A stretch of DNA of 64,000 bases from Flammeovirgaceae bacterium 311 (lineage in GTDB: Bacteria; Bacteroidota; Bacteroidia; Cytophagales; Cyclobacteriaceae): the NCBI GenBank assembly GCA_000597885.1, contig CP004371.1, forward strand, positions 3,612,501-3,676,500, written 5' to 3'. The translations under genes were made by a program, and so were the position numbers. This document shows, in pieces, positions 41,296 to 64,000 of this stretch. The stretch's first letter is position 1, and every line of letters starts with the position of its first letter. Under the pieces are notes generated by a model that saw nothing but the letters and a program-made list of their open reading frames with translations, was not told the DNA's origin and did not search any database.

Positions 41296-41456
41296 TCTGT
41301 ATATAAACCAGGATATCAGGCTTTTGCAAAACCCATAAAAATTGATGGCCCCGCAAATCTTGGAAAAGAGCAATAACCATTGCCGCGCTGAAGGGTTATT
41401 ATGTGAAGGGCACCTGCGAATGTATTGCAGCAATATTAGATTTCCTTAAACAAAAC

Positions 41457-43001
41457 ATGAGCCGACCTCCCTACAACGCGGTTATTCTGGATATGGACGG
41501 AGTACTTACCAATACATCCCGTCTGCATCTTAACGCCAGCAAAAAAATTTTCGATGCACTTTTACTAAAACATAACGGCCCCGGGTTTATTCCTTTTGAG
41601 GAAGAAGACTATAAACGATATCTTGCCGGTATGCCTCGCTACAAGGGCGTGCGCAAATTTTTGGAGAGCCGTAAACTTTCTGTTCCGGAGGGGAGCGCCA
41701 GCGATACGCAGGAGCAGGAAACCGTTTATGGTTTAGCCCTGCTCAAAAATGAGTATTTTCATGAATTGCTGGCCGAAGAAGGAGTAGAAGTGTTTGGTGA
41801 TACCCTGCAGATGATGGTAAGGTGGCGTGAGCAGGGCATTCCTATAGCATTGGTATCTTCGAGCCGAAATGCAGAAGAAATACTGGAGGCCGGAGGCATT
41901 TCAGACTTTTTCAGCATCCGGATCGATGGCCGCAATACTGCAGAAAGAGGCCTTGAAGGTAAACCCGATCCCGATGCTTTTCTAGAAGCAAGCCGGGAAC
42001 TAGGCATATCGCCTCAAGAAACCATTGTATTTGAAGATGCCAGAGCAGGGATTGTTGCCGGAAAAAAAGGAGGCTTTGGCTGGGTAGTAGGAGTAGCCCG
42101 CAATGGCGAAGACCGGGAACTGGCAGAAGCCGGAGCCGATATTATTGTACATAAGCTAACTGAACTAGATAATTACATGCAGAACCAATCAACTGCCCGA
42201 GAGGCCAACGAGCTGCCGCATGCCCTGCAAAGCAGGCATGAAATAGAGCAAAAACTTCAGGCGCAAACCCCTATTATTTTTCTGGATTATGATGGCACCT
42301 TAAGCCCTATTGTGAAAGACCCCGAAAAAGCCCTTTTAACAGATGAGATGAGAGGAATTCTCTCAAGCCTGGCAGAAAAAATAACTGTTGCCGTGGTAAG
42401 CGGCCGCGATCGTGCCGATGTGCAGAAAAAAGTTGGTCTGGATGGGGTGGTATATGCCGGCAGCCATGGCTTTGATATAGAAGGCCCTAATGGGCTGGCG
42501 TTGCAGTACGAAGGAGGCCAGGCAGCACAACCTGCGCTGGATGAGGCCACCCGGAACTTAAACAGCAAAATCGGCAGCATAGCAGGTGTGCGCATTGAGC
42601 GCAAAAAATACGCCATTGCCGTGCATTACCGCAACGTAGCCGAAGATCAGGTGCCTACAGTGATACAGGCTGTAGAAGACGAGCTTAGCCGCCAGGAAAA
42701 GCTGAAAGGAGGCGGTGGTAAAATGATTAAGGAACTGAAGCCTAAAATTGACTGGCACAAAGGCCGGGCTACAGAGTGGCTGATGGAAAAGCTAAACCTG
42801 AAAGGCGAAAAACTGCTGCCTGTTTTTATAGGCGATGATCTTACTGACGAAGATGGCCTGAAGGCTGTACATGAGCGCGGCATTGGCATACTTGCGGGTG
42901 AGCATGGTGAAAAAACGTGGGCCCACTATCGCCTGGAAGATGTTGCCGAAGTACAGGAATTTCTGCAGCTGCTGGATAATATGCTGGCCGGCAGAAAGTA
43001 A
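41457..43001 (+). CDS. HAD phosphatase/trehalose-6-phosphate phosphatase fusion
   Basis: A 514-residue two-domain protein. Residues about 1-240 are a HAD hydrolase like beta-phosphoglucomutase: VILDMDGVLTNTSRLH (catalytic Asp pair), a helical cap, LVSSSRNAEEILEAGG, GKPDPDAFLEASRELGI and FEDARAGIVAGKKGGF. Residues about 255-514 match trehalose-6-phosphate phosphatase OtsB: IIFLDYDGTLSPIVKDPEKA, VVSGRDRADVQKKV, YAGSHGFDIEGP and FIGDDLTDEDGLKAV. Both active sites look intact. The fusion could process trehalose-6-phosphate and glucose phosphates in one chain. No trehalose-6-phosphate synthase (OtsA) is nearby. Start ATG 41457 is preferred to GTG 41403; the upstream 18 residues are not conserved. 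Related HAD-OtsB fusions occur in mycobacterial OtsB1. Confidence 0.85.
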   Translation: MSRPPYNAVILDMDGVLTNTSRLHLNASKKIFDALLLKHNGPGFIPFEEEDYKRYLAGMPRYKGVRKFLESRKLSVPEGSASDTQEQETVYGLALLKNEYFHELLAEEGVEVFGDTLQMMVRWREQGIPIALVSSSRNAEEILEAGGISDFFSIRIDGRNTAERGLEGKPDPDAFLEASRELGISPQETIVFEDARAGIVAGKKGGFGWVVGVARNGEDRELAEAGADIIVHKLTELDNYMQNQSTAREANELPHALQSRHEIEQKLQAQTPIIFLDYDGTLSPIVKDPEKALLTDEMRGILSSLAEKITVAVVSGRDRADVQKKVGLDGVVYAGSHGFDIEGPNGLALQYEGGQAAQPALDEATRNLNSKIGSIAGVRIERKKYAIAVHYRNVAEDQVPTVIQAVEDELSRQEKLKGGGGKMIKELKPKIDWHKGRATEWLMEKLNLKGEKLLPVFIGDDLTDEDGLKAVHERGIGILAGEHGEKTWAHYRLEDVAEVQEFLQLLDNMLAGRK

Positions 43002-43501: not shown

Positions 43502-44449
43502 ATGACAAAGATAGTAACCCTTACACTTAATCCTGCTCTGGATAAAAGCACCGAAACTGATCGCTTATTACCCGATGAAAAGCTTCGCTGTGATCCCCCC
43601 CGCTGGGAACCTGGCGGTGGAGGCATCAATGTAAGCCGGGCAATTAAATTCCTGGGCGGAGATTCTCTCTGCATTTACCTGGCCGGAGGCCCCGCCGGAG
43701 ACAAGATGGAAGCCTTATTAGCAGCAGAGGGTATCAGGCAACAGCGTATTCCAGGCAAGGAAGAGACCCGCGAAAATATTGTGGTTTTCGAAAAGATGAC
43801 CCAAAAGCAGTATCGTTTCGGTATGCCTGGTGCCAAGGTGAGCGAAGAAGAGCTGCAAGCCTGTCTGGATGCCGTCAGGAACCTGCCCGAGGAGGTAGAG
43901 TACCTGGTAGCCAGCGGTAGCTTGCCCACCGGTGCACCCGATGATTTTTATGGCAGAATAACTCAGCTGGCACAGGGGCGAGGCATTAAGTGTGTAGTAG
44001 ATACCTCTGGTAAAGCTCTGCTGAAAGCTGCCGATAATGGTGTATGCCTCCTGAAGCCCAACCTAAGCGAGTTAAGCCAGCTGGCAGGCAAAGGAGACAT
44101 TAATGCACTGGAGCAGGAAGAAATAGCCAAAGAAGTAATCAATAGCGGTAAAGCCACCATGCTTGCTGTTTCACTGGGGCCCAGGGGGGCTATGCTGGCC
44201 ACAAAAGATCATATTGAATATGTAGTGCCGCCTACGGTAAAACAGCTAAGTACGGTAGGGGCTGGCGATAGTATGGTAGCAGGCATGGTACTAGCCCTTA
44301 GCCTAGGCAAATCTCACCACGATATGATCCGATGGGGTGTAGCCGCCGGTACTGCTGCTACCATGAGTCCTGGTTCCGAACTCTGCCGCCGCGAAGATGT
44401 AGAGCATATCTATGAGTGGTTAAGAGAGCGGAGCAATACTCCTGCCTAA
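43502..44449 (+). CDS. PfkB-family hexose kinase (1-phosphofructokinase or PfkB-type)
   Basis: A 315-residue ribokinase-fold sugar kinase. The opening TLTLNPALDKSTETDRL, PGGGGINVSRAIKFLGGD, and the C-terminal signature TVGAGDSMVAGMVLALS (catalytic Asp in GAGDS) place it in the 1-phosphofructokinase/tagatose-6-phosphate kinase/PfkB group. The exact substrate, fructose-1-phosphate or fructose-6-phosphate, is not certain. It follows the HAD-OtsB fusion in the same direction, which may link it to sugar-phosphate metabolism. ATG at 43502. Confidence 0.9.
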   Translation: MTKIVTLTLNPALDKSTETDRLLPDEKLRCDPPRWEPGGGGINVSRAIKFLGGDSLCIYLAGGPAGDKMEALLAAEGIRQQRIPGKEETRENIVVFEKMTQKQYRFGMPGAKVSEEELQACLDAVRNLPEEVEYLVASGSLPTGAPDDFYGRITQLAQGRGIKCVVDTSGKALLKAADNGVCLLKPNLSELSQLAGKGDINALEQEEIAKEVINSGKATMLAVSLGPRGAMLATKDHIEYVVPPTVKQLSTVGAGDSMVAGMVLALSLGKSHHDMIRWGVAAGTAATMSPGSELCRREDVEHIYEWLRERSNTPA

Positions 44450-47920: not shown

Positions 47921-50900
47921 ATGAGAAGAAATTTACTGATTAAAACATTTTTTCTGTTAGTATTTGCCCTATGCAGCATGCAGGCAGCTACAGGACAGGC
48001 AGTATTCATCAATGAAATTCATTATGACAATGATGGAACAGACAGTGGTGAAGCCATTGAAATAGCCGGACCGGCCGGAACAGACGTAAGTGGCTGGAGT
48101 GTGGTACTCTATAACGGAAACAATGGCGCAGCATATGATACCAAAACGCTTTCTGGTACTATTTCCGATCAAAGCAGTGGTTTTGGTTTTATTGTAATAA
48201 ACTATCCTTCTAACGGCATCCAGAACGGTGCTCCCGATGGTGTGGCCCTGGTAGACAACAACGGTAATGTACTGCAGTTTTTAAGCTATGAAGGCACTTT
48301 TACCGCAGTAGGTGGTCCGGCAGATGGCATGCTTAGCACCGATATAGGGGTGAGCGAGGCTGGCGGTACTGCTTCCGGCTCTTCTCTGCAGCTTTCCGGT
48401 AACGGCACCACCTATACAGATTTTAGCTGGGCTCCAGAAGCCACCGCTACTTTTGGATCCCTTAACAGCGCACAGAGCTTTGGCGAGGGTGGCGGCGGCA
48501 CTGATCCCGATCCCGACCCAGATCCTGACCCTACTCCCGGTGCTTCTACCATTGTTTTCATCAACGAAATCCATTACGATAATGCGGGTACTGACGAAAA
48601 TGAGGGTGTTGAACTGGCAGGCCTGGCTGGCACAAGCTTAAATGGCTGGCAGCTGATTCCTTATAATGGCAACAACGGAGCCAGCTATTCCCCCCTTACA
48701 CTATCAGGGGTTATTCCTGATCAGCAGGCTGGCTTTGGTACTGTTTTCTTTCCCATCAGCGGTTTGCAAAATGGTGCTCCCGATGGCATAGCGCTGGTAG
48801 ATGCAGAAGCTAATGTTATTCAGTTCCTAAGCTATGAAGGTACTTTTGCCGCCACCGATGGTCCTGCTGCAGGCTTAACCAGCACCGACATTGGTGTGGA
48901 AGAAGGCAGTGGCACTCCAGCAGACTTCTCCCTGCAACTAACAGGTACCGGCTCTGCTTACAAAGACTTTACATGGGCTGCCGAAGCAGCATCAACTTAT
49001 AATGCTGTAAACAACGAACAGCAGTTTCTGCCCCTGCAGGACATTGTATTTATCAACGAAATACACTACGACAACAATGGTGCTGATACAGGCGAGGGTG
49101 TTGAAGTAGCAGGAAATGCAGGCGCCGACCTGGAAGGCTGGCAGCTGGTTGCCTACAACGGCAGCAATGGAGCTGCCTATGCTACCACAAACCTCAGTGG
49201 TGTTATACCCAACCTGCAAAATGGCTACGGCACTGTATTTTTTGCTATTTCCGGTCTTCAGAACGGTGCGCCTGATGGCATTGCTCTGATAGATCCTGAA
49301 GGTGCTGTAGTACAATTTTTAAGCTACGAAGGTACATTTACCGCAGCAGGTGGCCCGGCAGATGGCATGCTTAGCACCGATATAGGCGTGGAAGAAACTA
49401 GCACAACCCCCGAAGGCCATTCGTTGCAGTTAACAGGCACAGGCTTTAACTATGCAGATTTTACCTGGAGCGGTCCTGTTGCGGGCACTTACAACGAAAT
49501 TAACACCGGCCAGAGCTTTAGTGCCGGAGGAGGCACAGATCCCGATCCGGAACCACAGGAAGTTAGCATTGCAGAAGCACGCAACTTACCTCTGGGTACC
49601 CAGGTTATCATAAATGGTACTTTAACAGCCGTAAACGAGCTGGGCGGCCCTGCTTATCTGCAGGACGAAACAGGCGGTATTCCTGTTTTCGATTATCAGG
49701 TGCATGGCCCCGACGGCTTTAGCATTGGTGATTCCATACAGGTAACAGCTTCTATTGGAGCCTTTAACCAGATGCTGCAATTAGTTGATGTTACCAATGT
49801 GGAAAGCTATGGCCCCGCCAATAGCCCAATAGCGCCTTTAGTGGTAAGTATTGCTGAAATTACCCCTGCACTGGAGGGCCAGCTTGTTACCATAACAGGG
49901 GCTTCTTTTACAGATACCAGAGGCTTGCTGTTCCCGGAAAGCAACTACAACATTACAGATGGCACCGGCACCATAGCACTAAGAATAGATGGTGATGTAG
50001 AGAGTTTGGTAGGGCGCGAAATTCCCGATGAGGCTGTAACCATAACAGGTGTGTTGAGCAGCTTCAGAGGCACCCTGCAGCTCCTTCCCCGCTTTATTGA
50101 GGATCTGCCCGGCACCACTCCTTACGAGCCGGAGGGCACCGATATTCCGTTTGCCACTACCCTGGATGTAATGAGCTGGAACATGGAGTTCTTCGGTTCT
50201 ACCCTGCCTAACTTTGGTCCTGAAAATGTGCAGCTGCAGCTGCAAAATGCCAAAGAAGTAATTGAGCGTGCAAATGCCGATGTTATTGCCGTACAGGAGA
50301 TTTCCGACGAGGGGCTGCTGCAGGAGCTGGCAGATATGCTGGGTTATATAAAAGTATGCTCCGACCGCTTCTCCTATTCTTTCGGTGAGCCAGACCCCAC
50401 TTTCCCGGATCAGAAGCTCTGCTTCCTCTATAATCCTGCCACCATTACGCTGGTAGATGAAAGAGTAATCTTTGAAGAAATGTACGATGCTGCCCGCTCC
50501 GGAGCCAGCACTCCCCTGGACCCTTACCCCACCGGTAACCCTTCTTCCTTCTGGTCTAGCGGCAGGCTGCCTTACATGATCACGGTAGATGCTACCATAG
50601 AGGGTAATACAGAGCGTATACAGCTTATCAACATCCATGCAAAATCGGGTTCTTCTGCCGCCGATCTCAGACGCCGATTCTTTGATGTGCAGGCCCTGAA
50701 CGATACCCTGGATCACTATTATCCCGATGCAAACCTTATATTGCTTGGAGATTATAATGATGATGTAGATGAATCGATAGGAGGCGGCCCTTCTACCTAT
50801 ATTGAATTTATAGAGGCTGAAAATTTCCAGGTAGTAACTTCAACCCTTAGCGAGGCGGGGCTGCGCTCTTTTATTACACAGGATAATGTCATTGACCATA

Positions 50901-51751
50901 TTGCGATCAGCGATGAGCTGTACGACAATTACCTGGCCGGTACCGAATCCCTGCTGATACCATTCTCTTACATATCAAACTACGGAAATACTACCTCAGA
51001 CCACCTGCCTGTATTTACGCGCTTTGAGCTGTACCAGCCCCTGGTTGCCTCCATTAGTGGCGATGATGTAGTATATTATGGATATGCTCCTGAAGAATGT
51101 ACTACTTTAACTGCTTCAGTAAGCGGCGGAAAAGGTGAGTATACCTATATATGGAGCACCGGAGAATCTACTGCCTCCATAGAAACCTGCCCTGAAACCA
51201 GCACTACCTATACCCTTACTGTTTTGGATGGCGCTGGCAACAGTACTACAGAAACCTTTAGTGTTTGCGCCATCGATGCGACCTGTGGTAATGACAAACT
51301 GCAGCTTTGCTGGCAGCCCAATAGCAACGTCAATATGCAGCTTTGTCTGCCTGCACAACTGGCAGATTTCTTCATCCGCCGCGGGGCTTCTATTGGCGCC
51401 TGTTTTGCAGAACAGGCCTGTGCGCCCGATAATAAAGATGTTAACGCAAGGATATCGCAAAGTACGGATGTACAGTACCTGGAAATTAACAGTGCGTTTT
51501 CTGTTACACCTAACCTTATATCTGGCAAAGCAACTGTAGATTTTATAGTACTGGAAGAGGGCAGAACCACCGTTAAGTTGTATACCGTAGATGGCCGGGA
51601 GCTGGCAACGCTGTACGATGCTAAAGATAGCTTTGGCACTGCCCGTTCTGCAGAGTTTAATGTGGACAGCTATAAATCAGGCCTTTACGTGGTAAGAATG
51701 ACAACCGCCAGTGGCGAGGCCTTTACCTCTAAAATTATAGTGAAGCCTTAA
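47921..51751 (+). CDS. T9SS cargo with three lamin-tail-like domains and an EEP phosphodiesterase
   Basis: A 1276-residue secreted protein. Signal peptide about 1-26 (FLLVFALCSMQAATGQ). Three LTD-like (lamin-tail) modules follow at about 27-165, 208-352 and 372-520, each with VFINEIHYDN and a DGIALVD/FLSYEGTF segment; a linker of Asp/Pro repeats separates the first two. An OB-fold-like region is at about 545-740 (LPLGTQVIINGTLTAVN; LEGQLVTITGASF). An endonuclease/exonuclease/phosphatase domain (about 748-1035) retains all key residues: MSWNMEFFG, VIAVQEIS, NIHAKSG, LLGDYNDD and TSDHLPVFTRF. A SprB/PKD-like repeat (about 1055-1120; SGGKGEYTYIWSTGEST) and a T9SS type A sorting domain (about 1195-1276) end the protein. 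It is probably an extracellular nuclease or phosphodiesterase. Confidence 0.88.
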   Translation: MRRNLLIKTFFLLVFALCSMQAATGQAVFINEIHYDNDGTDSGEAIEIAGPAGTDVSGWSVVLYNGNNGAAYDTKTLSGTISDQSSGFGFIVINYPSNGIQNGAPDGVALVDNNGNVLQFLSYEGTFTAVGGPADGMLSTDIGVSEAGGTASGSSLQLSGNGTTYTDFSWAPEATATFGSLNSAQSFGEGGGGTDPDPDPDPDPTPGASTIVFINEIHYDNAGTDENEGVELAGLAGTSLNGWQLIPYNGNNGASYSPLTLSGVIPDQQAGFGTVFFPISGLQNGAPDGIALVDAEANVIQFLSYEGTFAATDGPAAGLTSTDIGVEEGSGTPADFSLQLTGTGSAYKDFTWAAEAASTYNAVNNEQQFLPLQDIVFINEIHYDNNGADTGEGVEVAGNAGADLEGWQLVAYNGSNGAAYATTNLSGVIPNLQNGYGTVFFAISGLQNGAPDGIALIDPEGAVVQFLSYEGTFTAAGGPADGMLSTDIGVEETSTTPEGHSLQLTGTGFNYADFTWSGPVAGTYNEINTGQSFSAGGGTDPDPEPQEVSIAEARNLPLGTQVIINGTLTAVNELGGPAYLQDETGGIPVFDYQVHGPDGFSIGDSIQVTASIGAFNQMLQLVDVTNVESYGPANSPIAPLVVSIAEITPALEGQLVTITGASFTDTRGLLFPESNYNITDGTGTIALRIDGDVESLVGREIPDEAVTITGVLSSFRGTLQLLPRFIEDLPGTTPYEPEGTDIPFATTLDVMSWNMEFFGSTLPNFGPENVQLQLQNAKEVIERANADVIAVQEISDEGLLQELADMLGYIKVCSDRFSYSFGEPDPTFPDQKLCFLYNPATITLVDERVIFEEMYDAARSGASTPLDPYPTGNPSSFWSSGRLPYMITVDATIEGNTERIQLINIHAKSGSSAADLRRRFFDVQALNDTLDHYYPDANLILLGDYNDDVDESIGGGPSTYIEFIEAENFQVVTSTLSEAGLRSFITQDNVIDHIAISDELYDNYLAGTESLLIPFSYISNYGNTTSDHLPVFTRFELYQPLVASISGDDVVYYGYAPEECTTLTASVSGGKGEYTYIWSTGESTASIETCPETSTTYTLTVLDGAGNSTTETFSVCAIDATCGNDKLQLCWQPNSNVNMQLCLPAQLADFFIRRGASIGACFAEQACAPDNKDVNARISQSTDVQYLEINSAFSVTPNLISGKATVDFIVLEEGRTTVKLYTVDGRELATLYDAKDSFGTARSAEFNVDSYKSGLYVVRMTTASGEAFTSKIIVKP
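48317..48348 (+). repeat. 32-bp repeat shared by LTD modules 1 and 3
   Basis: Positions 48317-48348 are identical, base for base, to 49355-49386 in the third LTD module of the same gene, although flanking codons differ. The middle module does not share it. It suggests recent gene conversion or unequal exchange between modules. Confidence 0.8.
49355..49386 (+). repeat. Second copy of the 32-bp repeat
   Basis: Second copy of the identical 32-bp segment (see 48317-48348), within the third lamin-tail-like module. Confidence 0.8.
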
Positions 51752-51895: not shown

Positions 51896-52021
51896 CTGTG
51901 CAGCCAGATGTTAAGTAAATGCAGGGCTACTAAAGAGAAGCCAAAAGCTACCATCAAGGCCAGAAAGTGATATCCATTTGAGGCCTGCCTCGTATACTCA
52001 ATTAGAATAAAATATTTGATT

Positions 52022-52321
52022 ATGGCAGATTTAGATAAGAAAACACCACGTGATGAACAGAACCACCAGCCTGATAACGCCGGGCTGCAAAATAAGCTTA
52101 CCGAAAAGCAAAGCCCTGCAGACACAGATAAGGGTGGCCTAAGTGGCAAAACCAGCCACAGCGACGATGGTGGTTCACAACGTGCAAACGTAAGTACCAA
52201 TGGTGGTGTTGACCGCCCAAGCATAGGCGAAATAGGTACAGATAAACAACGGGAGAAAAACCGGATTCTTAATGAGCAGGTGAGAGATCCTGAAGATAAG
52301 AATAACGGACCTAAAAAATAA
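52022..52321 (+). CDS. Small hydrophilic disordered-like protein
   Basis: A 99-residue protein, rich in Asp, Lys, Gln, Asn, Gly and Ser, with no hydrophobic segment (MADLDKKTPRDEQNHQPDN ... EQVRDPEDKNNGPKK). ATG at 52022 is preferred to the TTG and ATT codons just before it. The composition recalls LEA-like or stress-protective disordered proteins; no family is recognised. A 22-bp perfect hairpin follows it. Confidence 0.6.
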   Translation: MADLDKKTPRDEQNHQPDNAGLQNKLTEKQSPADTDKGGLSGKTSHSDDGGSQRANVSTNGGVDRPSIGEIGTDKQREKNRILNEQVRDPEDKNNGPKK

Positions 52322-52711: not shown

Positions 52712-53995
52712 ATGGAAAAAGCGCCACTGCCGCCCAATGAAGATTTACGATTACTGGCACTCCAGCGGTATCAGCTATTAGACACTGGCTCAGAAGAGCA
52801 GTTTGATGACATTGTTAAGCTTGCTTCACAGATATGCAATACACCTGTATCGCTTATTTCTCTTGTAGATTCTAAAAGGCAGTGGTTTAAAGCCCGCAAG
52901 AATTTTTCCATTCCGGAAATCTCTCGCGAATATGCATTCTGTGCCCATACTATTTTAAGCGACGAGCTGTTGGTAATCGAAGATGCTACAGCAGATGACC
53001 GCTTCAAAAATAACCCGCTGGTAACAGGCGATCCGGATATCAGGTTTTATGCAGGCGCACCACTGATTACGCATGATCAATACAGGCTGGGTGCACTCTG
53101 TGTGATAGACCGTATACCGCGTAATCTCAGTGATCATCAGAAATTTGCCCTCAAGGTACTGGCAGGGCAGGTGGTTAAATTACTGGAACTTCGTTACCAG
53201 AATCTAAAACTGGCCAAAAGTCTCCAAACTGTTAGTCTTCAGAAAAAACGTATTCAGTCACTTCTGCAGGAGCGCGTAAAACTTACTGAAGAACTTGCTA
53301 AAACAAGCCACACCAAAGATCAGATGCTGTCTATCGTTGCGCATGATTTGCGGAGCCCACTACATACTTTACAGAACCTGCTCATGCTCATGTCTGCTAA
53401 AAAAGCCCCTCTGCAGGATGCTGAAAAGTATACGACTGCATTGGGTAAATCTGTAAAAAACGCCATTAACCTGCTGGAGAATTTGCTGGAGTGGGGCAGG
53501 ATACAGCTGGAAGGCCAGGAGCCGGAGAAGCAGCAGGTGAACCTGCATGCCATTGTAGAACAACAGCTCTCAGTGTTACAGAATGCTGCAGAAGAGAAAG
53601 GAAATGTGCTCCGGAACCTGATACCTCAGGATACAGAGTCATATGGCAATACCACATCCCTGAACATAGTGCTGCGCAACCTGCTCATCAATGCTAATAA
53701 ATTCACAGCTGGGGGTGTTATCAGCATATTTTTAGAACAGAAGCCGGATGCAAAGTGGCTGGTGATCCAGGATACAGGTGTTGGCATGGAACCTGCAGTA
53801 TTGGCTCATTTATTCGATTTAAATAAAAAACAAAACCGCTCCGGCACCAACAATGAAAAAGGAAGTGGACTGGGCCTGCACATGAGCCGCGAAGTGCTGC
53901 AACAAATGGGAGGCAGCCTACTGATTGAAAGCAGCGAAGGTAAAGGCACCATTGTTACAGTTATTTTACCTGAAGCAAAAAAAACCGGATCTTGA
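52712..53995 (+). CDS. GAF-domain sensor histidine kinase (orphan)
   Basis: A 427-residue cytoplasmic kinase. The GAF domain (about 20-165) shows FDDIVKLASQICNTPVSLISLVD and FYAGAPLITHDQYRLGALCVID. A coiled linker (about 170-205) leads to HisKA with IVAHDLRSPLHTL (phosphoacceptor His about 209) and the HATPase domain with NLLINANKFTAGG (N box), IQDTGVGMEPA (G1 box) and NEKGSGLGLHMSREV (G2 box). The small-ligand or redox input to GAF is unknown. No response regulator is adjacent. A terminator overlaps its stop. Confidence 0.9.
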   Translation: MEKAPLPPNEDLRLLALQRYQLLDTGSEEQFDDIVKLASQICNTPVSLISLVDSKRQWFKARKNFSIPEISREYAFCAHTILSDELLVIEDATADDRFKNNPLVTGDPDIRFYAGAPLITHDQYRLGALCVIDRIPRNLSDHQKFALKVLAGQVVKLLELRYQNLKLAKSLQTVSLQKKRIQSLLQERVKLTEELAKTSHTKDQMLSIVAHDLRSPLHTLQNLLMLMSAKKAPLQDAEKYTTALGKSVKNAINLLENLLEWGRIQLEGQEPEKQQVNLHAIVEQQLSVLQNAAEEKGNVLRNLIPQDTESYGNTTSLNIVLRNLLINANKFTAGGVISIFLEQKPDAKWLVIQDTGVGMEPAVLAHLFDLNKKQNRSGTNNEKGSGLGLHMSREVLQQMGGSLLIESSEGKGTIVTVILPEAKKTGS

Positions 53996-54013: not shown

Positions 54014-54047
54014 ATTATAGGCCCTTTGGTAGGGCTGTGTCGCTTAA

Positions 54048-55010
54048 TTAGTAGCGATCTGGGTCGTAGCCGCGGTTATAGCCACCAAATTGGGAGCTGC
54101 GGTTTCTATTGTAGCTGTCACTACCCCAGCCGCTTCTGTCATTATCACGGTCGCCCCAGCTGCGGTCATCGCGGCGGTCGTCCATGTCGCGGCGGCGTTC
54201 TGCCCTGTCATCGCCAAACCAGGAACGTACTTCGTCACCTGACTTTTCGAAGAACCCACGGTCATTATCGCGGTCTCTGTTGCGATTCATGTCGCGGTCG
54301 TAGCCAGATGAACCAAAGTGGCTGCCACGGTCGCGGTCATAATCACGTCCATAGCTGCTGCCGCCACCACTGTAATTGGTGCTGCCGCTACCGCCACCAT
54401 ATTCGCTGCCGTAGCTACGGTAATCGCTGGCGCCGCCACCATAGCTGCTCCCTCTGTTTGAAGAACCGGAGCCATAGTTGCTGCTGCCGGAACCATAGCT
54501 GTTATTGCCAAAGCTGCGGTCGCTGCGGTCGCGGTCGTAACCACCGGTCATGCCGCCGCCAAAGTTGCTGGTGCTACCATACATGTTGGCAGATGATCCG
54601 TAATTGCTGCGTCCGGAATCACGATCAAAGTTGCTGCTGGAGCCAAGGTTTCTTCCACCACCATAGGAGCTTCCCATGCTGGAGTTATGGTATCCATCAG
54701 AACCTCTCCTGTTGCGGTCGCTGTCACGGTCGCCCCAGTTACGGTTGCTGTCGCGGTCGCCCCAGTTACGATCACTGTTGCTATAGCCACGGTCGTAGCG
54801 CTGGTTCGAATCCCTGCGGCGATCGTTGTCATCATCACCAAACCAGGAACGTACCTGATCTCCGGCTTTATCAAAAAAGCCCCGATCGTTGTCACGGTCA
54901 CGGTTGTTGTAATCGCGGTCGTAGCCTCGGTTATAGTTAGATCCGTAGGTACGGTCGCGGTCGTAATTATTATTATTATCTCTGTCTGAAAAATCTTGTT
55001 CGTATCGCAT
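54048..55010 (-). CDS. Gly/Asn/Asp/Arg/Tyr-rich low-complexity protein with two SWF motifs
   Basis: A 320-residue protein built of low-complexity sequence rich in Gly, Ser, Asn, Asp, Arg and Tyr (SSNYGSGSSNRGSSYGGGAS; DRDRGSHFGSSGYDRD). It has no signal peptide and very few Leu, Ile or Val, so it is likely cytoplasmic and mostly disordered. Two copies of a conserved motif interrupt it: RGFFDKAGDQVRSWFGDD (about 44-61) and RGFFEKSGDEVRSWFGDD (about 252-269), each followed by an Arg/Asp-rich tail (AERRRDMDDR). The motif recurs near the C-terminus of the neighbour at 55277. The motif resembles SWFGD-type segments that I recall in some BON-domain proteins of this phylum, though not with certainty. 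Function unknown. Confidence 0.75.
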   Translation of the reverse strand: MRYEQDFSDRDNNNNYDRDRTYGSNYNRGYDRDYNNRDRDNDRGFFDKAGDQVRSWFGDDDNDRRRDSNQRYDRGYSNSDRNWGDRDSNRNWGDRDSDRNRRGSDGYHNSSMGSSYGGGRNLGSSSNFDRDSGRSNYGSSANMYGSTSNFGGGMTGGYDRDRSDRSFGNNSYGSGSSNYGSGSSNRGSSYGGGASDYRSYGSEYGGGSGSTNYSGGGSSYGRDYDRDRGSHFGSSGYDRDMNRNRDRDNDRGFFEKSGDEVRSWFGDDRAERRRDMDDRRDDRSWGDRDNDRSGWGSDSYNRNRSSQFGGYNRGYDPDRY

Positions 55011-55218
55011 AATTGTAAAAGTTTAGTTAAAAAATTATTTAAATATTGCCGGCTGGCTGTGAAAGCCATATTGCCAGCAAATCTGCTTTTGCCTCTTTAA
55101 AAAGTACTCTGCATATTCAGGCACCTTCAGCAAAAGCATGTATACAGCTTATTCTTTTAAAAAAGAATTATGCTGTTCCCTTATATAAACTACTGTTTAT
55201 ATCTGAAAAGGTTATGAG

Positions 55219-55251
55219 CAAAGACCGGCTCTGCATGAGCCAGTCTTTGCC
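55219..55251 (-). terminator. Hairpin between the two low-complexity genes
   Basis: On the plus strand GCAAAGACCGGCTC (55219-55232) pairs with GAGCCAGTCTTTGC (55238-55251), one mismatch, around a 5-base loop. On the minus strand it follows the stop of the 55277 gene; no long U tract is seen, so termination strength is uncertain. Confidence 0.5.
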
Positions 55252-55276
55252 TTAACCATTGCTTTGCTATTAATTA

Positions 55277-57856
55277 CTAGTAGCGGTCGCGGCCTTGTGA
55301 GCCATAATTGCGGTCGCGGTCGTCATCATCGCTGCTAAACCATGAACGCACACGCTCACCTGCTTTTTCCAGGAAGCCACGATCTTCGTCGCGATTTCTG
55401 TCACGATCATTATCTCTGTTGCGGTCATAGTTGCTACTGCCACCATAATTCTGGTTGCGGTCGCCGCTGTAGTTGCCATACTCTGTGTGCTGGCTGCGGT
55501 TAGCACCAGACCCGCCTGAACGGTTTTGTCCATAGCCTGCGCCGTAGTTACCGCCGCCACCATAGCTGCTGGCGCCGCCGTAGTTGCTGCCGGAACCAGC
55601 ACCGGAACCATAGCCACCGCCATAGTTGCGGTCTCTGTCGGAGCCAAAGCTTGATCCGCCCTGGCTGCCCTGGTTACCAGAGCCCATACCGCCGCCATAA
55701 GAACCGGAGGTACTGCCATAGCCGCCACTGCTCATACCACCGCTATAGCTGCTGCGGCCCATATTGCGGTCGTTGTCGCGGTCTGAATTGCCGCCACCCC
55801 AGCTGCTGGAGCCACCACCATAGTTGCTGCTGCCGCCAAAGTCGCGGTCACGGTCGGTAGAACCACCGCCATAGCTGCTGTAGCCACCTCTGCCAGATAT
55901 ACCCATATCACGGCCTGAACCGGAAGAAGAGCCACCATAGCCACTCTGGCCGCTGGAGCCAAAGCCTCCGCCATAGTTGCTGGTGCTGGAACCATAGCCG
56001 CTGCTCATGCTGCTTCCATAGCCACCAGAACCTCCCTGGTTGCTTCTGCCCCAGTCGCCACGGTCGGAGCTGCCGCCATAGCCGGAGCCGCCTCTGTTAG
56101 ACATGCCCATATCGCGGTCGCGGCCGGAAGAAGAACCTCCATAGCCACCCTGGCTGCTTGAGCCATAGTTAGAGCTTCCATAGTTTCCTGATCCGTAGCT
56201 TGAGCTACCATAGTTCTGATCGCTATCGGTACCACGGTAAGAGCCACTGCCATAGCTGGAGTCTTGTCTGAAACCTCCACCTGAGCTGCGGTCGCGGTCG
56301 TAGCCTCCACCTCCACTGCTGGAGCCGTAGTTAGAGCTACCGTAATTACCAGAACCGTAGCTTGAGCCGCCTAAGCCTCTGTCGCTGTCGGTGCCACGAT
56401 CAAAGCTGCCGCCATAACTGGAGCCGCCCATGCCGCTTGCGCCGCCAAAATCGCGATTTCTGTCGCTACCGCCGCCACCGCCATAGCTGCCGGTATCGTA
56501 ACCCGAGCCGGAGCTGTAGCCACGGTATCCTTCATTCTGATTATCTCTGCCACGATTTTGATCGTTTTGCATACTGCCAGAATATTGATTTCCACCCTGG
56601 TTTTGGTCGCCATACTGGCTGAACCCAGAGCTACGGCCATATCCGCCGGACATACCATGATTACCCTGGTTACTCATGTTACCCTGGTTACCTTGGTTGT
56701 AAGAGCCGCCCCATCCCTGGGAACCACCCTGTTCGCGTTCCTGGTTTCTCCAGTTAGAGCCATGGCTTTGGTTCCAGTCAGATCCCTGGCCATAATTATG
56801 ACCGCCCTGGCCACTCTGGTTGCTTCCTGAGCTGTTGCCCTGGTTCCATGTATGACTACCCTGGTTTCTGTTGTAGCCGCCCATCTGGTCCTGGTTTCCA
56901 CGGTTTTCACTTCCGCCCGAGCCTTGCCCATACTGGCTGCTGCTACTGCCGTAACTATTGCCCATACCAGATTCTCCGCGGCCATAATTTTCGCTGTTCC
57001 AGTTAGCACCGGAGCCTCCCTGGCCACTGTACTGGCTGGCAGAACTGCCATACCCAAAACCAGAGTTCTGGTTTGATGAACCACCCTGATTGCGCATGTT
57101 ACCTTCATTATAACCACCTTCGCTCTGCCTGTAGCCCTGGCTCCAGTTACCACCCTGGTCTTGAGAGCCCTGGCCGGAACCCATGTTTCCGCCCATGCCA
57201 TAACCATAATCGGCACCAGAGCTGCCACCTAAAGCGTAACTACTGCTCCGGCCTCCCTGGTTTTGATCATCCTGGTTCCTGCTGCCGGACTGGCTGCCGT
57301 AATTCTGGCCCTGGTTGCTTTGGCCGGAACCGGAAGATGATGAATACGGGCTTTGACTGCCGGCACTGCTCCAGCTGCGCTCACGATCGGAATCGTTACC
57401 TCTGTTACTGCTGTTACCAGTATTACCTGATGATTCATTGTTTCTGTCATAATTACTGCCAGAGCCAGTATTACCACCAGAGCTGCTACTGCTTGTATTA
57501 GTGGAAGAACCACTTATATCTCCTGAGCTGCTTTTGGCTTTATCGCCTGTAGAAGAACCGGCGTTGGTGCTTCCGCTAGTGCCAGAGCCTGCGTTGGTAC
57601 TACCACTTGCAGAGCTACCTGAGCTTCTGTTACTGGAAGCAGCAGTAGCTGATTTTGAAGTACCACCTGTTTTACTCTTATCGGTACTGCCGCCCGCATT
57701 GCTCCCTGTGGAGCTGCTGCCAGATGAGGCAGTTACATCTGTTGATGATTTGCCGGTAGCATTTCCTGTTTTCTTGCTGTCGTTAGTCGAATTAGTCTCC
57801 GAATTTTTGTTTCGGTCCTGATCAGACTGCGATTCATTTTTGTCATTCGTAGCCAT
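55277..57856 (-). CDS. Giant Gly/Ser/Tyr-rich low-complexity protein with C-terminal SWF motif
   Basis: An 859-residue protein almost wholly of low complexity. The N-terminal part (about 1-125) is Ser/Thr/Gly/Asn/Lys/Ala rich without Tyr (SSTGSNAGGSTDKSKTGGTS). The middle part (about 130-430) is Gln/Asn/Gly/Ser rich with Tyr (NWSQGYRQSEGGYNEGNMRN). The rest (about 430-820) is Tyr/Gly/Ser/Arg/Asp rich (SSYGSGNYGSSNYGSSSQGG). It ends with RGFLEKAGERVRSWFSSDDDD (about 833-853), related to the motif in the 54048 protein. No signal peptide, no cysteine, hardly any aliphatic residues. The composition is similar to prion-like, phase-separating proteins of eukaryotes, with repeated Tyr and Arg as stickers. 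Bacterial function unknown. Confidence 0.75.
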   Translation of the reverse strand: MATNDKNESQSDQDRNKNSETNSTNDSKKTGNATGKSSTDVTASSGSSSTGSNAGGSTDKSKTGGTSKSATAASSNRSSGSSASGSTNAGSGTSGSTNAGSSTGDKAKSSSGDISGSSTNTSSSSSGGNTGSGSNYDRNNESSGNTGNSSNRGNDSDRERSWSSAGSQSPYSSSSGSGQSNQGQNYGSQSGSRNQDDQNQGGRSSSYALGGSSGADYGYGMGGNMGSGQGSQDQGGNWSQGYRQSEGGYNEGNMRNQGGSSNQNSGFGYGSSASQYSGQGGSGANWNSENYGRGESGMGNSYGSSSSQYGQGSGGSENRGNQDQMGGYNRNQGSHTWNQGNSSGSNQSGQGGHNYGQGSDWNQSHGSNWRNQEREQGGSQGWGGSYNQGNQGNMSNQGNHGMSGGYGRSSGFSQYGDQNQGGNQYSGSMQNDQNRGRDNQNEGYRGYSSGSGYDTGSYGGGGGSDRNRDFGGASGMGGSSYGGSFDRGTDSDRGLGGSSYGSGNYGSSNYGSSSGGGGYDRDRSSGGGFRQDSSYGSGSYRGTDSDQNYGSSSYGSGNYGSSNYGSSSQGGYGGSSSGRDRDMGMSNRGGSGYGGSSDRGDWGRSNQGGSGGYGSSMSSGYGSSTSNYGGGFGSSGQSGYGGSSSGSGRDMGISGRGGYSSYGGGSTDRDRDFGGSSNYGGGSSSWGGGNSDRDNDRNMGRSSYSGGMSSGGYGSTSGSYGGGMGSGNQGSQGGSSFGSDRDRNYGGGYGSGAGSGSNYGGASSYGGGGNYGAGYGQNRSGGSGANRSQHTEYGNYSGDRNQNYGGSSNYDRNRDNDRDRNRDEDRGFLEKAGERVRSWFSSDDDDRDRNYGSQGRDRY

Positions 57857-58104
57857 AAAAATTTCAAGTTTTAATAATAAAAAATTCTATTTGATTGTCG
57901 TTGATCCCGGGTTTACCACATACACCTACCTGCTTTTCTCCCGGGCCGGCACTCCATACAAAAGGAGTTCATAACAGCCTGGATAAACAGGTCATGCAAG
58001 AGATGTAGCATCTCTGCATCATTAATCATAATGGCCGTACATTGTACGCCCCGGTCCGGTTAGCAAAGCATTACATAGCATACTGCTCCAGAAGAAGCAG
58101 TCAG

Positions 58105-58677
58105 TTAAGCAGCCTGCAGCATTTGTGATGGCTTAACACATCCATCTACAATGATACAGAGTGCTTTCGTTTCACTCTTAAGCTTTTGCAAGAGGTTACG
58201 CTGATGCCTTGGCACCACCTGCAGATCATTAGGCAGCTTTGGCCTTGCATGTTGTTTGCAATACCAATGTTTAAACGGAGCTTTTACACTCATACTGCTA
58301 ATAAGTTGCGTTAGCTTGTCCGCCTCCATACCAGTAAAAGCTGGTACCAATGGCGTACCTCCGGGGTTGAGAAAAGAGCGGGAGGGAGAAGAAAAATTAT
58401 TCAGTGAAGAAGAGACAGAACCAGAGTACTTAAAACTGCCAACAGCCTGGGTTATGGTTTGCAGCTGGTCAGAGGAGGGTTTTACAGAGCGTTCAGAAAA
58501 AGGAACTTCAGTAGCCCGGATTTTGGACTCAATATCAAAGCTAAAACTTAAAAGACGGCAACAGGCTGCTTTCGTCCTTTCTTCCTGTTGAAACGCTGTT
58601 TGTCTGGTTGAAAAAAATTTAGTGCCCATACAGCCGTAAAGACAAGCTGCGGGCTTTACAACACTGATCTGATTCAT
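58105..58677 (-). CDS. Hypothetical protein, unknown family
   Basis: A 190-residue protein that I do not recognise. It is Ser/Lys/Arg rich with several Cys (KAACCRLLSFSFDIESKI; FKHWYCKQHARPKLPND; ALCIIVDGCVKPSQM). No signal peptide. A strong ribosome-binding site (GAGGGGATC just before the ATG, plus strand 58678-58686) supports translation. A plus-strand frame at 58256-58591 is its antisense shadow. It lies upstream of the low-complexity pair in the same direction and could be linked to it. Confidence 0.45.
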   Translation of the reverse strand: MNQISVVKPAACLYGCMGTKFFSTRQTAFQQEERTKAACCRLLSFSFDIESKIRATEVPFSERSVKPSSDQLQTITQAVGSFKYSGSVSSSLNNFSSPSRSFLNPGGTPLVPAFTGMEADKLTQLISSMSVKAPFKHWYCKQHARPKLPNDLQVVPRHQRNLLQKLKSETKALCIIVDGCVKPSQMLQAA

Positions 58678-58935
58678 GATCCCCTCTGAAAATATACTTC
58701 CTTAAAAAAATTTCAAACGTTTGAAAAGCTGCTATAGCGGCTATCTTACTTTTGGAAGTACCTGTATAACAGGATCAGTCTTGCATGGTTTTGAAAAGCC
58801 TGATTAATTTTATTTTAACTTTTTGACTTAAAAAAGCGGCTCTACCTATTATATAAATACGGTAAATAATAAAAACTGTTATCTTTTAAACATTCTCGCA
58901 CCAATGCCTTTAAATAGAGACAAGCCTAATTCTAT

Positions 58936-59559
58936 ATGTCTATTTTTAATAAATCTGGTAGTACAGAGCAACACGGCAATGAGCCTCACCCATTCTTTAA
59001 AAGAGTAGTTGACCGACTGCCACCGGGCAGATTACTCTTACTGAGTGAGTCTGTAAACCGGTATGCTGTTTATGCCGCAGAAGCAGGCTGGAGGGTGCAT
59101 GCCATAGGGTTTAGCAAGGATGATCAGGAAAGAACACTAGCCCTGGCCGATCAGGCACATGAAAAAAATATCTCATTCAGCCTCTATCAGCCTAACACTC
59201 CTTTTTGCCAGGGCCTGGAATTTGATGCAGCCGTACTCATGTACGCACAGCTGCCTCCGGATATCAGGCGCAGCTTTCACCAGGCAGTAGTCAATTGCCT
59301 TAAACCAGACGGTGGCAACCTTTACCTGCTGGCATACAGTGAAAACCAGCCCGAAAACACCACGGCTTACCTGCCCGATGTTCGTTACCGGAAAGCTGAT
59401 CTGATGGAAGACTTTACGGGCTTACAAATTGATCTGCTGCAGGAAGAAGAAGAAACACTCCCGGATACGGATCAAAAAGTCTCTTTGATCCACCTGACGG
59501 CGGTTCGCAACAGCGAGTACGATGGCAGCGACTCGGTAAGTTTTTCAGTGAAGGGGTAA
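58936..59559 (+). CDS. SAM-dependent methyltransferase-like protein (degenerate motif I)
   Basis: A 207-residue class I methyltransferase-like protein. After the HPFFKRVVDRLPPGRLLLLSESVNRYAVYAAEAGWRVHAIG stretch (about 22-61), where a TehB-like enzyme has VLxPGEGEGRNAVYAA, the usual glycine-rich motif I is changed to LSESVNR, so SAM binding may be weak or altered. The acidic motif II (HAIGFSKDD) and motif IV (LEFDAAVLMYAQLPPDIRRSF) are visible, as is VVNCLKPDGGNLYLL near 115. It is 6 bp before a DUF3891-like gene, with which it probably forms an operon. Confidence 0.7.
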   Translation: MSIFNKSGSTEQHGNEPHPFFKRVVDRLPPGRLLLLSESVNRYAVYAAEAGWRVHAIGFSKDDQERTLALADQAHEKNISFSLYQPNTPFCQGLEFDAAVLMYAQLPPDIRRSFHQAVVNCLKPDGGNLYLLAYSENQPENTTAYLPDVRYRKADLMEDFTGLQIDLLQEEEETLPDTDQKVSLIHLTAVRNSEYDGSDSVSFSVKG

Positions 59560-59565
59560 TCTTCT

Positions 59566-60294
59566 ATGATTGTAAACAGTACTGAAAAGGGCTGGGAAAT
59601 AATTTTTCAGCGTGCGCATGAATTGCTGGCTGTACAAATTGGCTGGCACTGGCAGCTAAAGCAGCGCCCTCAACGCTGGCTGGAAACCCTCACTGCCATT
59701 GGCGATCATGACAATCAGCAGGATGCATGGCAGCGTGCAGAACATCTTACCAAAGCAGGTGCTCCTATCGATTTTAGTCAGAAGGTGTTTTCACTGCAAC
59801 AGGCTCAAAATGTTGTGAGGGTAGCCCAGTATAAAAGCCGCTACGTAGCCCTGCTCATCAGCATGCATGTAAGCTACCTCTACGAAAGTTTAAGAGGAGA
59901 AAATAAAGGGCTGGATCAGCTGCTGGACGAGCAAAAGAAACACCAGCAGGAGTGGCGAAAAACATTAAAAATAAGTAAACAGGAAGCAGAGGCCGCATAT
60001 CGGTTAATGCACTGGTGCGACCGTTGTTCGTTAATTTTATGCAGGCGCCAGCTGCCTGAAGACGAACGCCGGCTGGAGGTTTTTCAGGGACCTGATGGTG
60101 AAACCTATCATATCTGGCAACGCAGCCAGGACAGAAGCCTGGTGATAGAACCCTGGCCTTTTGAAGAAAAAGAGTTTGATGTTTGGGTAGAAGTCAGGCA
60201 ACTGGAACAGCTTAGCTTTGATAATGATGAAGCCCTTGCCAAAGCGCTTATGTCGGCCAAACCTGTTGAACAGCACTGGATTTTCAAAAAATAG
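59566..60294 (+). CDS. DUF3891-like protein
   Basis: A 242-residue soluble protein of the DUF3891 type. The pattern GWEIIFQRAHELLAVQIGWHW (about 9-29), IGDHDNQQDAWQRAEHL and YKSRYVALLISMHVSYLYES fits the family; several His residues (RAH, GDHDN, SMHVSY) may form a metal-binding or catalytic site, as in HD-like folds. Biochemical role unknown. It is 6 bp after the methyltransferase-like gene, so they are likely coupled. A long hairpin follows. Confidence 0.75.
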   Translation: MIVNSTEKGWEIIFQRAHELLAVQIGWHWQLKQRPQRWLETLTAIGDHDNQQDAWQRAEHLTKAGAPIDFSQKVFSLQQAQNVVRVAQYKSRYVALLISMHVSYLYESLRGENKGLDQLLDEQKKHQQEWRKTLKISKQEAEAAYRLMHWCDRCSLILCRRQLPEDERRLEVFQGPDGETYHIWQRSQDRSLVIEPWPFEEKEFDVWVEVRQLEQLSFDNDEALAKALMSAKPVEQHWIFKK

Positions 60295-62147: not shown

Positions 62148-62287
62148 ATCAGGCGGCAGTCAAACTACCGGGAGCGTATAGAGGCTGCTGTAGTTAGTAT
62201 ATTCAGCCCAATAAGCTTAAAGCTAAAATCAAAAATAACTGCTATCTCTTTGACTTCCGCCTGAAAAGTTTCTATTATTGATCCATG
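62148..62287. other. Intergenic gap before the TPP riboswitch
   Basis: Together with the riboswitch it makes up the 339-bp gap between the DUF4268 gene and thiS. The stretch before 62288 is AT-rich and probably holds the promoter of the thi operon. Confidence 0.5.
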
Positions 62288-62375
62288 CTTTAGGGGTGCC
62301 TCACATTTGTGTGGCTGAGATCATACCCTCATAAACCTGATCCGGTTCGTACCGGTGTAGGGAAAAGTTCGCTTC
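62288..62375 (+). promoter_or_regulatory. TPP riboswitch (THI element)
   Basis: The conserved core of the thiamine-pyrophosphate riboswitch is present in order: GGGGTGCC (62293-62300), a variable arm, GGCTGAGAT (62313-62321), ACCC, AACCTGATCCGGTTCGTACCGG (with the CTGA core at 62336-62339), and GTAGGGAA (62356-62363). It lies 57 bp before the thiS start and in the orientation of the thi genes. It should lower thiSC expression when TPP is plentiful; the expression platform, terminator or SD sequestration, cannot be fixed here. Confidence 0.95.
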
Positions 62376-62431
62376 CATGCTGTGCGCATTCTGCGCCACT
62401 GGTGCCTCCTAAAGTTATAAAACTTATCTAT

Positions 62432-62661: not shown

Positions 62662-64000
<1,339 letters not shown>

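Follow-up and report, generated by a model that had tools for sequence, protein, structure and literature searches.

The DNA analyzed here, which we call the window, is a stretch of 64,000 nucleotides (nt) of Flammeovirgaceae bacterium 311, within a single-contig genome of 6.67 Mb. Two neighboring genes in the window encode proteins of 320 and 859 amino acids that are dominated by a few polar and aromatic residues and predicted to be disordered. Motif, architecture, and selection, as read from the sequences, show both to be members of a small, lineage-expanded family of disordered proteins that carry the SWFGD motif, and a private, promoter-like element common to the family's loci is new in this analysis. 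Among the comparison genomes were Cesiribacter sp. SM1, the nearest named relative found, and G002, a third Cesiribacter genome in draft form. The features of the locus are as follows.

54048–55010, minus strand: small gene, encoding an RD/SYG-rich disordered protein of 320 amino acids with two SWFGD motifs
54180–54266, minus strand: second SWFGD domain copy in the small protein (56.0 bits)
54807–54890, minus strand: first SWFGD domain copy in the small protein (54.7 bits)
55277–57856, minus strand: large gene, encoding a three-zone disordered protein of 859 amino acids with a SWFGD-like motif at its C-terminus
55310–55387, minus strand: the large protein's divergent SWFGD motif (residues 824–849; 20.0 bits against a cut-off of 35)
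55388–56536, minus strand: zone 3 of the large protein (about residues 441–823), rich in Tyr, Gly, Ser, Arg, and Asp
56537–57466, minus strand: zone 2 of the large protein (about residues 131–440), rich in Gln, Asn, Gly, and Ser
57467–57856, minus strand: zone 1 of the large protein (about residues 1–130), rich in Ser, Thr, Lys, and Gly; it begins MATNDKNESQSD
57857–58764, minus strand: apparently non-coding leader of 908 bp between the element and the start codon of the large gene
58765–58791, minus strand: bipartite, family-specific, promoter-like element of 27 bp, AAACCATGC-N2-G-N6-CCTGTTATA, with no mismatches and pointing towards the pair

Composition and conservation of the gene pair

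The small gene lies downstream of the large gene after a gap of 266 bp. An initial annotation of this DNA described the products as giant, prion-like proteins with SYG/NYG repeats, Arg-Asp clusters, almost no aliphatic residues, and no signal peptide, and most of this description held. Gly, Ser, Asn, Gln, Tyr, Asp, and Arg make up 85.9% of the small protein and 85.2% of the large protein, which rank first and second for this share among the 62 window open reading frames (ORFs) of at least 150 amino acids (mean 37%). Ile, Leu, and Val together contribute 3 of 320 and 7 of 859 residues, respectively. The words SYG and NYG occur 7 times in the small and 24 times in the large protein (1.2 and 5.1 expected), numbers reached in none of 1,000 residue shuffles, and the counts of DRD (12 and 8, compared with 1.4 and 0.26 in shuffles) were also above all 1,000. 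By eye, neither N-terminus (MRYEQDFSDRD in the small protein, MATNDKNESQ in the large protein) contains a hydrophobic stretch, and no signal peptide is visible. At 320 and 859 amino acids, the label "giant" was an overstatement. The prion-like label stands for composition. A yeast-type prion criterion asks for at least 30 Gln and Asn in 80 residues; the maximum is 29 in the large protein, 17 in the small protein, 30 in the large orthologue of SM1, and up to 38 in other relatives, so by this strict count the label is borderline and falls short.

Disorder is weakly supported by AlphaFold2 models, which, from alignments of only two sequences each, gave a predicted local distance difference test score below 50 for 312 of 320 residues of the small protein and 826 of 859 of the large protein, and of 70 or more for none. 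The sole helix across the models spans residues 827–837 of the large protein, at the SWFGD-like motif. A Pfam search of both proteins, up to an E value of 1, matched no domain, including BON (PF04972) and the curlin repeat, and a sequence search of the PDB with the small protein gave no match. An ORF antisense to the small gene (54026–54940) was taken as its shadow.

Comparison with relatives indicates that the pair are genuine genes under purifying selection. Ratios of nonsynonymous to synonymous substitution (dN/dS, Nei-Gojobori) between the window and SM1 were 0.158 for the large gene and 0.100 for the small gene, compared with 0.067–0.128 for seven neighbors, and the zones of the large protein were alike in this respect (0.140–0.171). 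All indels in the nucleotide alignments with SM1 were multiples of three (22 of 22 in the large gene and 6 of 6 in the small gene). The initial annotation had held that absence from close relatives with intact flanks would suggest junk or local expansion. What we found was mostly retention: both genes are intact between the same flanks in SM1; both are present in G002, where the large gene is represented by its 3′ end, cut at a contig edge and followed by the small gene, which reads in two frames; and the large gene, with no small one seen, lies between the same neighbors in two genomes of a second genus. In the small gene of SM1 (L018:8382–9380), the two SWFGD repeats are identical at 83 of 87 DNA positions, compared with 60 of 87 in the window copy, and gene conversion between the repeats in SM1 is probable.

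The SWFGD family and its three-zone members

The SWFGD domain is represented by the NCBIfam model NF033157, which has 29 positions and a curated cut-off of 35 bits. The motifs, two in the small protein and one in the large protein, were overlooked in the initial annotation. Over its whole length, the small protein scored 87.8 bits, well over the cut-off. The large protein matched model positions 1–26 with 20.0 bits; since this copy is divergent and under the cut-off, the large protein is not filed as a formal member. The motifs tie both proteins to a wider family and so correct the earlier implication that the pair had no relatives. Likewise, the proposal of an undescribed system stands in part: the small protein belongs to NF033157 and has relatives in other genera, and what is new is the upstream element. 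We found no paper naming the SWFGD domain among 5.39 million open papers.

Within its own genome, NF033157 gave five matches in four proteins, namely the pair and two proteins of 456 and 697 amino acids encoded at two distant loci. Among 390 genomes of the same family (own genome included), 21 matched at E ≤0.01 and 16 passed the cut-off. Four of the 21 (G461, G520, G612, and G639, E 0.003–0.01) were rejected as chance matches in frames that contain a stop, and a match in G004 (E 0.088) was also set aside as chance. In a draw of 395 Bacteroidota genomes, the model matched the own genome only.

Relatives in three other genera are built differently. In 14 of 14 proteins read from them, the SWFGD motif precedes a Pfam BON domain, with a conserved HRGKGPKxY linker in between, and mostly follows a disordered stretch rich in Asn, Tyr, Gly, Ser, Arg, and Asp (short in L047 and L057). 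The window proteins share the motif with these relatives and lack the BON domain, and their placement of the motif is their own: doubled in the small protein and near the C-terminus in the large protein. A BON search of the own genome at E 0.001 found none. Used as a query against 72,556 plasmid records, a SWFGD-BON sequence matched 193 (Sinorhizobium, Azospirillum, and others), 102 of them over at least 80% of the query; many of the remaining matches rest on the BON part alone, and the bare SWFGD segment matched no plasmid record. Against the PDB, the BON part of the relatives matched chains of OsmY and YraP, and the relatives scored far under the cut-off of the NCBIfam OsmY model. Any likeness of the window pair to OsmY/BON stress proteins therefore runs only through the BON part of these relatives, since the pair itself is mostly disordered by prediction and has neither a BON domain nor a visible signal peptide.

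Two genomes of another genus, G029 and G509, also have the BON-less large type. We picked seven large-type proteins from two genera by the start MA-x-x-D-K/Q-N/K: those of the window and SM1, a pair of 697 and 700 amino acids, an SM1 protein of 681 amino acids, and two from the other BON-less genus. The three compositional zones noted earlier in the large protein are present there and recur in all seven. The first tenth consists of 52–72% Ser, Thr, Ala, and Lys; Gln plus Asn peaks at 27–40% in tenths four to six; and Tyr, Arg, and Asp are highest in the second half. Zone 1 is absent from the small protein, from a pair of 456 and 487 amino acids, and from a G002 protein of 484 amino acids. The zones had been read as stages of repeat growth, which our results do not bear out. 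A tandem repeat finder gave only seven rows of 1.9–5.1 copies each, and because all seven large-type proteins in two genera share the zones, we interpret them as architecture. The members of the 697/700 pair are only 47% identical between the two species, which makes it unlikely that the shared layout is left over from repeat growth. A relative of the 681-residue SM1 protein in the own genome (L099:7695–8423) has a visible part of 242 amino acids with no SWFGD match.

A 27-bp element upstream of the family's loci

The element was found by comparing the upstream regions of family genes. At up to one mismatch, it occurs at exactly three places in the genome (the window locus and the loci of the 456- and 697-residue proteins), all upstream of SWFGD loci and reading towards the gene. 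By base composition, 0.003 such places would be expected at up to one mismatch and 1.5 at up to three, and the reversed pattern had no match in the own genome. The matches in SM1 with no or one mismatch are exactly the three orthologous loci. An SM1 element with two mismatches lies 366 bp before the 681-residue protein, a further family member with three zones that the domain model missed because it has no detectable SWFGD motif. The G002 protein of 484 amino acids, also missed by the model, ends in the degenerate motif VRHWFGGDEQD. The element thus led to family members overlooked by domain search in two sister genomes, and across the three Cesiribacter genomes, 8 of the 13 matches at three mismatches or fewer are followed within 1 kb by a family-type disordered protein.

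Comparison between paralogues points to constraint on the two halves of the element. Its two blocks have identities of 0.92 and 0.90, with 0.52 in the spacer and mostly 0.2–0.4 in the flanks, which reach 0.58 just downstream. This is the pattern that −35 and −10 boxes, or an operator with two sites, would leave, and we infer that the element is a promoter.

Weaker matches were rejected as candidates. In the own genome, one at 5341925 (two mismatches) lies inside a long coding frame with no disordered protein following, and one at 2916136 (three mismatches, the same letters in SM1) precedes an ABC transporter and no disordered protein. In genomes of other genera, 14 of 14 matches precede ordinary ORFs, and 4 of the 13 genomes have no match.

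Between the element and the large gene, parts of the leader are conserved beyond what synonymous sites would suggest, at 84–90% identity to SM1 compared with about half identity at synonymous sites. In folding, the leader's 3′ 444 nt (57857–58300, minus strand) outscored 99 of 100 shuffled versions (z −2.84), and a regulatory RNA is possible. We rejected an ORF of 190 amino acids upstream of the large gene (58105–58677) as not coding, because substitutions relative to SM1 are spread evenly over codon positions (58, 65, and 68 of 188–189). Shortly downstream of the element, a palindrome, TTTCAAACGTTTGAAA, at 58711–58726 is followed by a T run and is nearly conserved in SM1. Several family genes in two genera have an AT-rich leader like TTTTTTAACC-AAAC directly before their start codons (e.g., 55011–55050, minus strand), which may be a general translation leader of the lineage.

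Possible function and genomic neighborhood

Four genes around the pair bear on its possible function.

41403–43001, plus strand: HAD hydrolase fused to a trehalose-phosphatase, in the wider neighborhood
43502–44449, plus strand: PfkB carbohydrate kinase, in the wider neighborhood and also in the second genus
58936–59559, plus strand: methyltransferase-like divergent neighbor (17.5 bits in Pfam, a weak match below the cut-off)
59566–60294, plus strand: DUF3891 protein, whose gene also neighbors the large gene in the second genus

At all four loci where this flank is available (the window, SM1, and the two second-genus genomes), the methyltransferase-like and DUF3891 genes lie close to the large gene and divergent from it; in the second genus, a LuxR-type response regulator stands in between. 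On the opposite side of the pair, the PfkB and trehalose-phosphatase genes are found in the window, in G002, and in both second-genus genomes, where they are about 2 and 5 kb away; the SM1 stretch ends short of this point. In Sinorhizobium meliloti 1021, a gene of the SWFGD-BON type (pSymB 1372331–1373074, 54.7 bits) has CBS, topoisomerase IB, and two amylase-fold (glucan/trehalose-type) genes around it. A table in PMC2780559 places SMb21444 and SMb21445 at this spot, so we took the gene to be SMb21444. The adjacent SMb21442 and SMb21441 are activated by RpoE2 and RpoE6 according to a table in PMC6180224, and the promoter printed there for SMb21442-SMb21441 is present letter for letter in this locus. 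The identification of treZ as SMb21447 in PMC4960864 fits the gene order. Directly before the SWFGD-BON gene itself, an EcfG-type promoter was rejected as a poor candidate. The link of the family to stress and trehalose is thus one of gene neighborhood only.

The best explanation of these patterns, for which we consider the case about evenly balanced, is a small regulon dedicated to disordered cytoplasmic protectants that act with trehalose under stress. The element would be the −35 and −10 boxes (or the operator) through which a dedicated stress regulator switches the loci on together, and the proteins would accumulate under water loss, salt, or related stress. Segments rich in Tyr, Arg, Gly, and Asn, together with the short SWFGD helix, may associate with one another weakly and reversibly into a gel or condensate; both condensate formation and stress induction are inferred. 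Macromolecules would then be shielded by these proteins together with trehalose, to whose synthesis the nearby genes would contribute. This lineage would have lost the BON domain found after the motif in relatives, and the motif would have doubled in the small protein.

Resemblance to known protectants is partial. Hydrophilins have more than 6% Gly and a hydrophilicity index above 1. With 16.6% and 26.1% Gly and grand averages of hydropathy (GRAVY) of −1.96 and −1.48, the small and large proteins both fall on the hydrophilin side of these limits, and this composition, with trehalose genes in the wider neighborhood, likens them to LEA-type desiccation protectants. They differ in being Tyr-rich and in carrying an aromatic SWFGD motif. 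High glycine and high mean hydrophilicity are the defining properties given in the text of PMC4190154. A protectant function would be of a known kind, since passages in two reviews (PMC7069898, PMC10534466) name disordered proteins and condensation among the factors that may help bacteria tolerate desiccation. Hsp12 and trehalose are reported to act in synergy in yeast (PMC6054528), and disordered proteins would join trehalose in a bacterium in a similar pairing.

Several observations weigh against this reading. We found no published expression, localization, or phenotype data for any family member. In S. meliloti, the documented RpoE2 control concerns neighbors of SMb21444, and the passages cited above do not name SMb21444 itself as a target; in the window, the trehalose-phosphatase and PfkB genes are 11–14 kb from the pair. 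No copy of the element turned up around the second-genus large gene, and the 13 other-genus genomes yielded 14 matches (two or three mismatches, in 9 genomes) compared with 17 for the reversed control. G002 has a single match, with three mismatches, 107 bp before the 484-residue protein, and the reversed pattern also has one. The distance from element to start codon is 908 bp in the window and 970 bp in SM1, compared with 70–125 bp at five other loci and 366 bp at one. The element could also be a relic of duplication, though divergence of the flanks has reached background level. The other paralogues show faster evolution (dN/dS of 0.216 and 0.348), the small gene was not seen outside Cesiribacter, including in the second genus, and its two SWFGD copies lie in different frames in G002 (L022:515–1323), which reflects a frameshift either in the gene or in the draft sequence. 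AlphaFold2 lends the predicted disorder weak support because each alignment held two sequences; the large protein falls one residue short of the Gln and Asn count in the prion criterion, and the small protein far short; and the hydrophobic moment of the SWFGD segment is reached by 11–35% of shuffles. The idea of an amphipathic helix in this segment was accordingly set aside, its moment being no higher than in shuffles.

A stronger form of the regulon reading, which we regard as tentative, is that in Cesiribacter a private promoter, with its own sigma factor or activator, controls only low-complexity SWFGD proteins, which would together form a protective cytoplasmic condensate or gel of several components. 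If true, eukaryotic stress condensates and protectant gels of the tardigrade type would have a counterpart in bacteria. A family with its own upstream signal would offer a tractable bacterial system for asking whether low-complexity composition is selected for condensate or protectant function, and the element would give direct access to the timing of the family's use.

The composition also invites comparison with FUS/FET low-complexity domains, and the proteins could be condensate formers that bind RNA or DNA and organize RNA or the nucleoid under stress through Arg/Tyr/Gly-rich, RGG- or FUS-like tails. The small and large proteins have 27 and 58 Tyr and 52 and 56 Arg as possible stickers, SYG/NYG words, and net charges near zero. 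Arg stands mostly beside Asp, however, with RD or DR occurring 45 and 39 times and RGG 0 and 2 times, and neither protein has a Pfam domain, RNA-binding or other. The FUS/FET resemblance is one of composition, not homology, and we consider nucleic acid binding unlikely. Equally unlikely, in our view, is an envelope-associated scaffold in which SWFGD docks onto partners in the membrane or envelope, with the disordered part forming a layer. BON proteins of the type that follows SWFGD in relatives, like OsmY and YraP, may dock in this way, but BON is missing from both proteins and from the genome, and by eye neither a signal peptide nor a membrane segment is visible. Somewhat less probable still is that the proteins are exported without a classical signal and belong to an extracellular or biofilm matrix. 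The pair is rich in Gly, Asn, Gln, Ser, and Tyr, as are curli-type amyloids, and a curlin-repeat protein is encoded directly downstream in one of the two second-genus genomes; however, the pair has no curlin repeat or visible signal peptide, and neither the other second-genus genome (L049) nor the window has a curlin-type gene following the large one. Junk or local repeat expansion, to which low complexity, short repeat arrays, copy-number differences between genomes, and the two frames of the G002 small gene might point, is close to refuted by purifying selection, in-frame indels, zones shared across genera, and the common upstream element.

Further features of the neighborhood were noted in passing. 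The curlin-repeat protein of the second genus (L024:7741–8778) has a signal-peptide-like start by eye. A GAF histidine kinase gene (52712–53995) adjoins the small gene in the window and in SM1 and is absent from the matching interval of G002, where a gene for 82 amino acids directly follows the small gene. This 82-residue protein is a relative of a conserved hydrophilic protein of 101 amino acids (52016–52321; GRAVY −1.55, dN/dS 0.088, no Pfam match at E 0.01) encoded two genes from the pair in the window. At Rfam gathering thresholds, the only match was a thiamine pyrophosphate (TPP) riboswitch (RF00059, 62.3 bits) at 62282–62380, about 300 bp before the thiC gene at 62674. Finally, the gene at 47921–51751 encodes a protein of 1,276 amino acids with a signal-like start and, by eye, three INEIHYDN-type modules ahead of an endonuclease/exonuclease-like part, and it has relatives at the same place in SM1 and G002.

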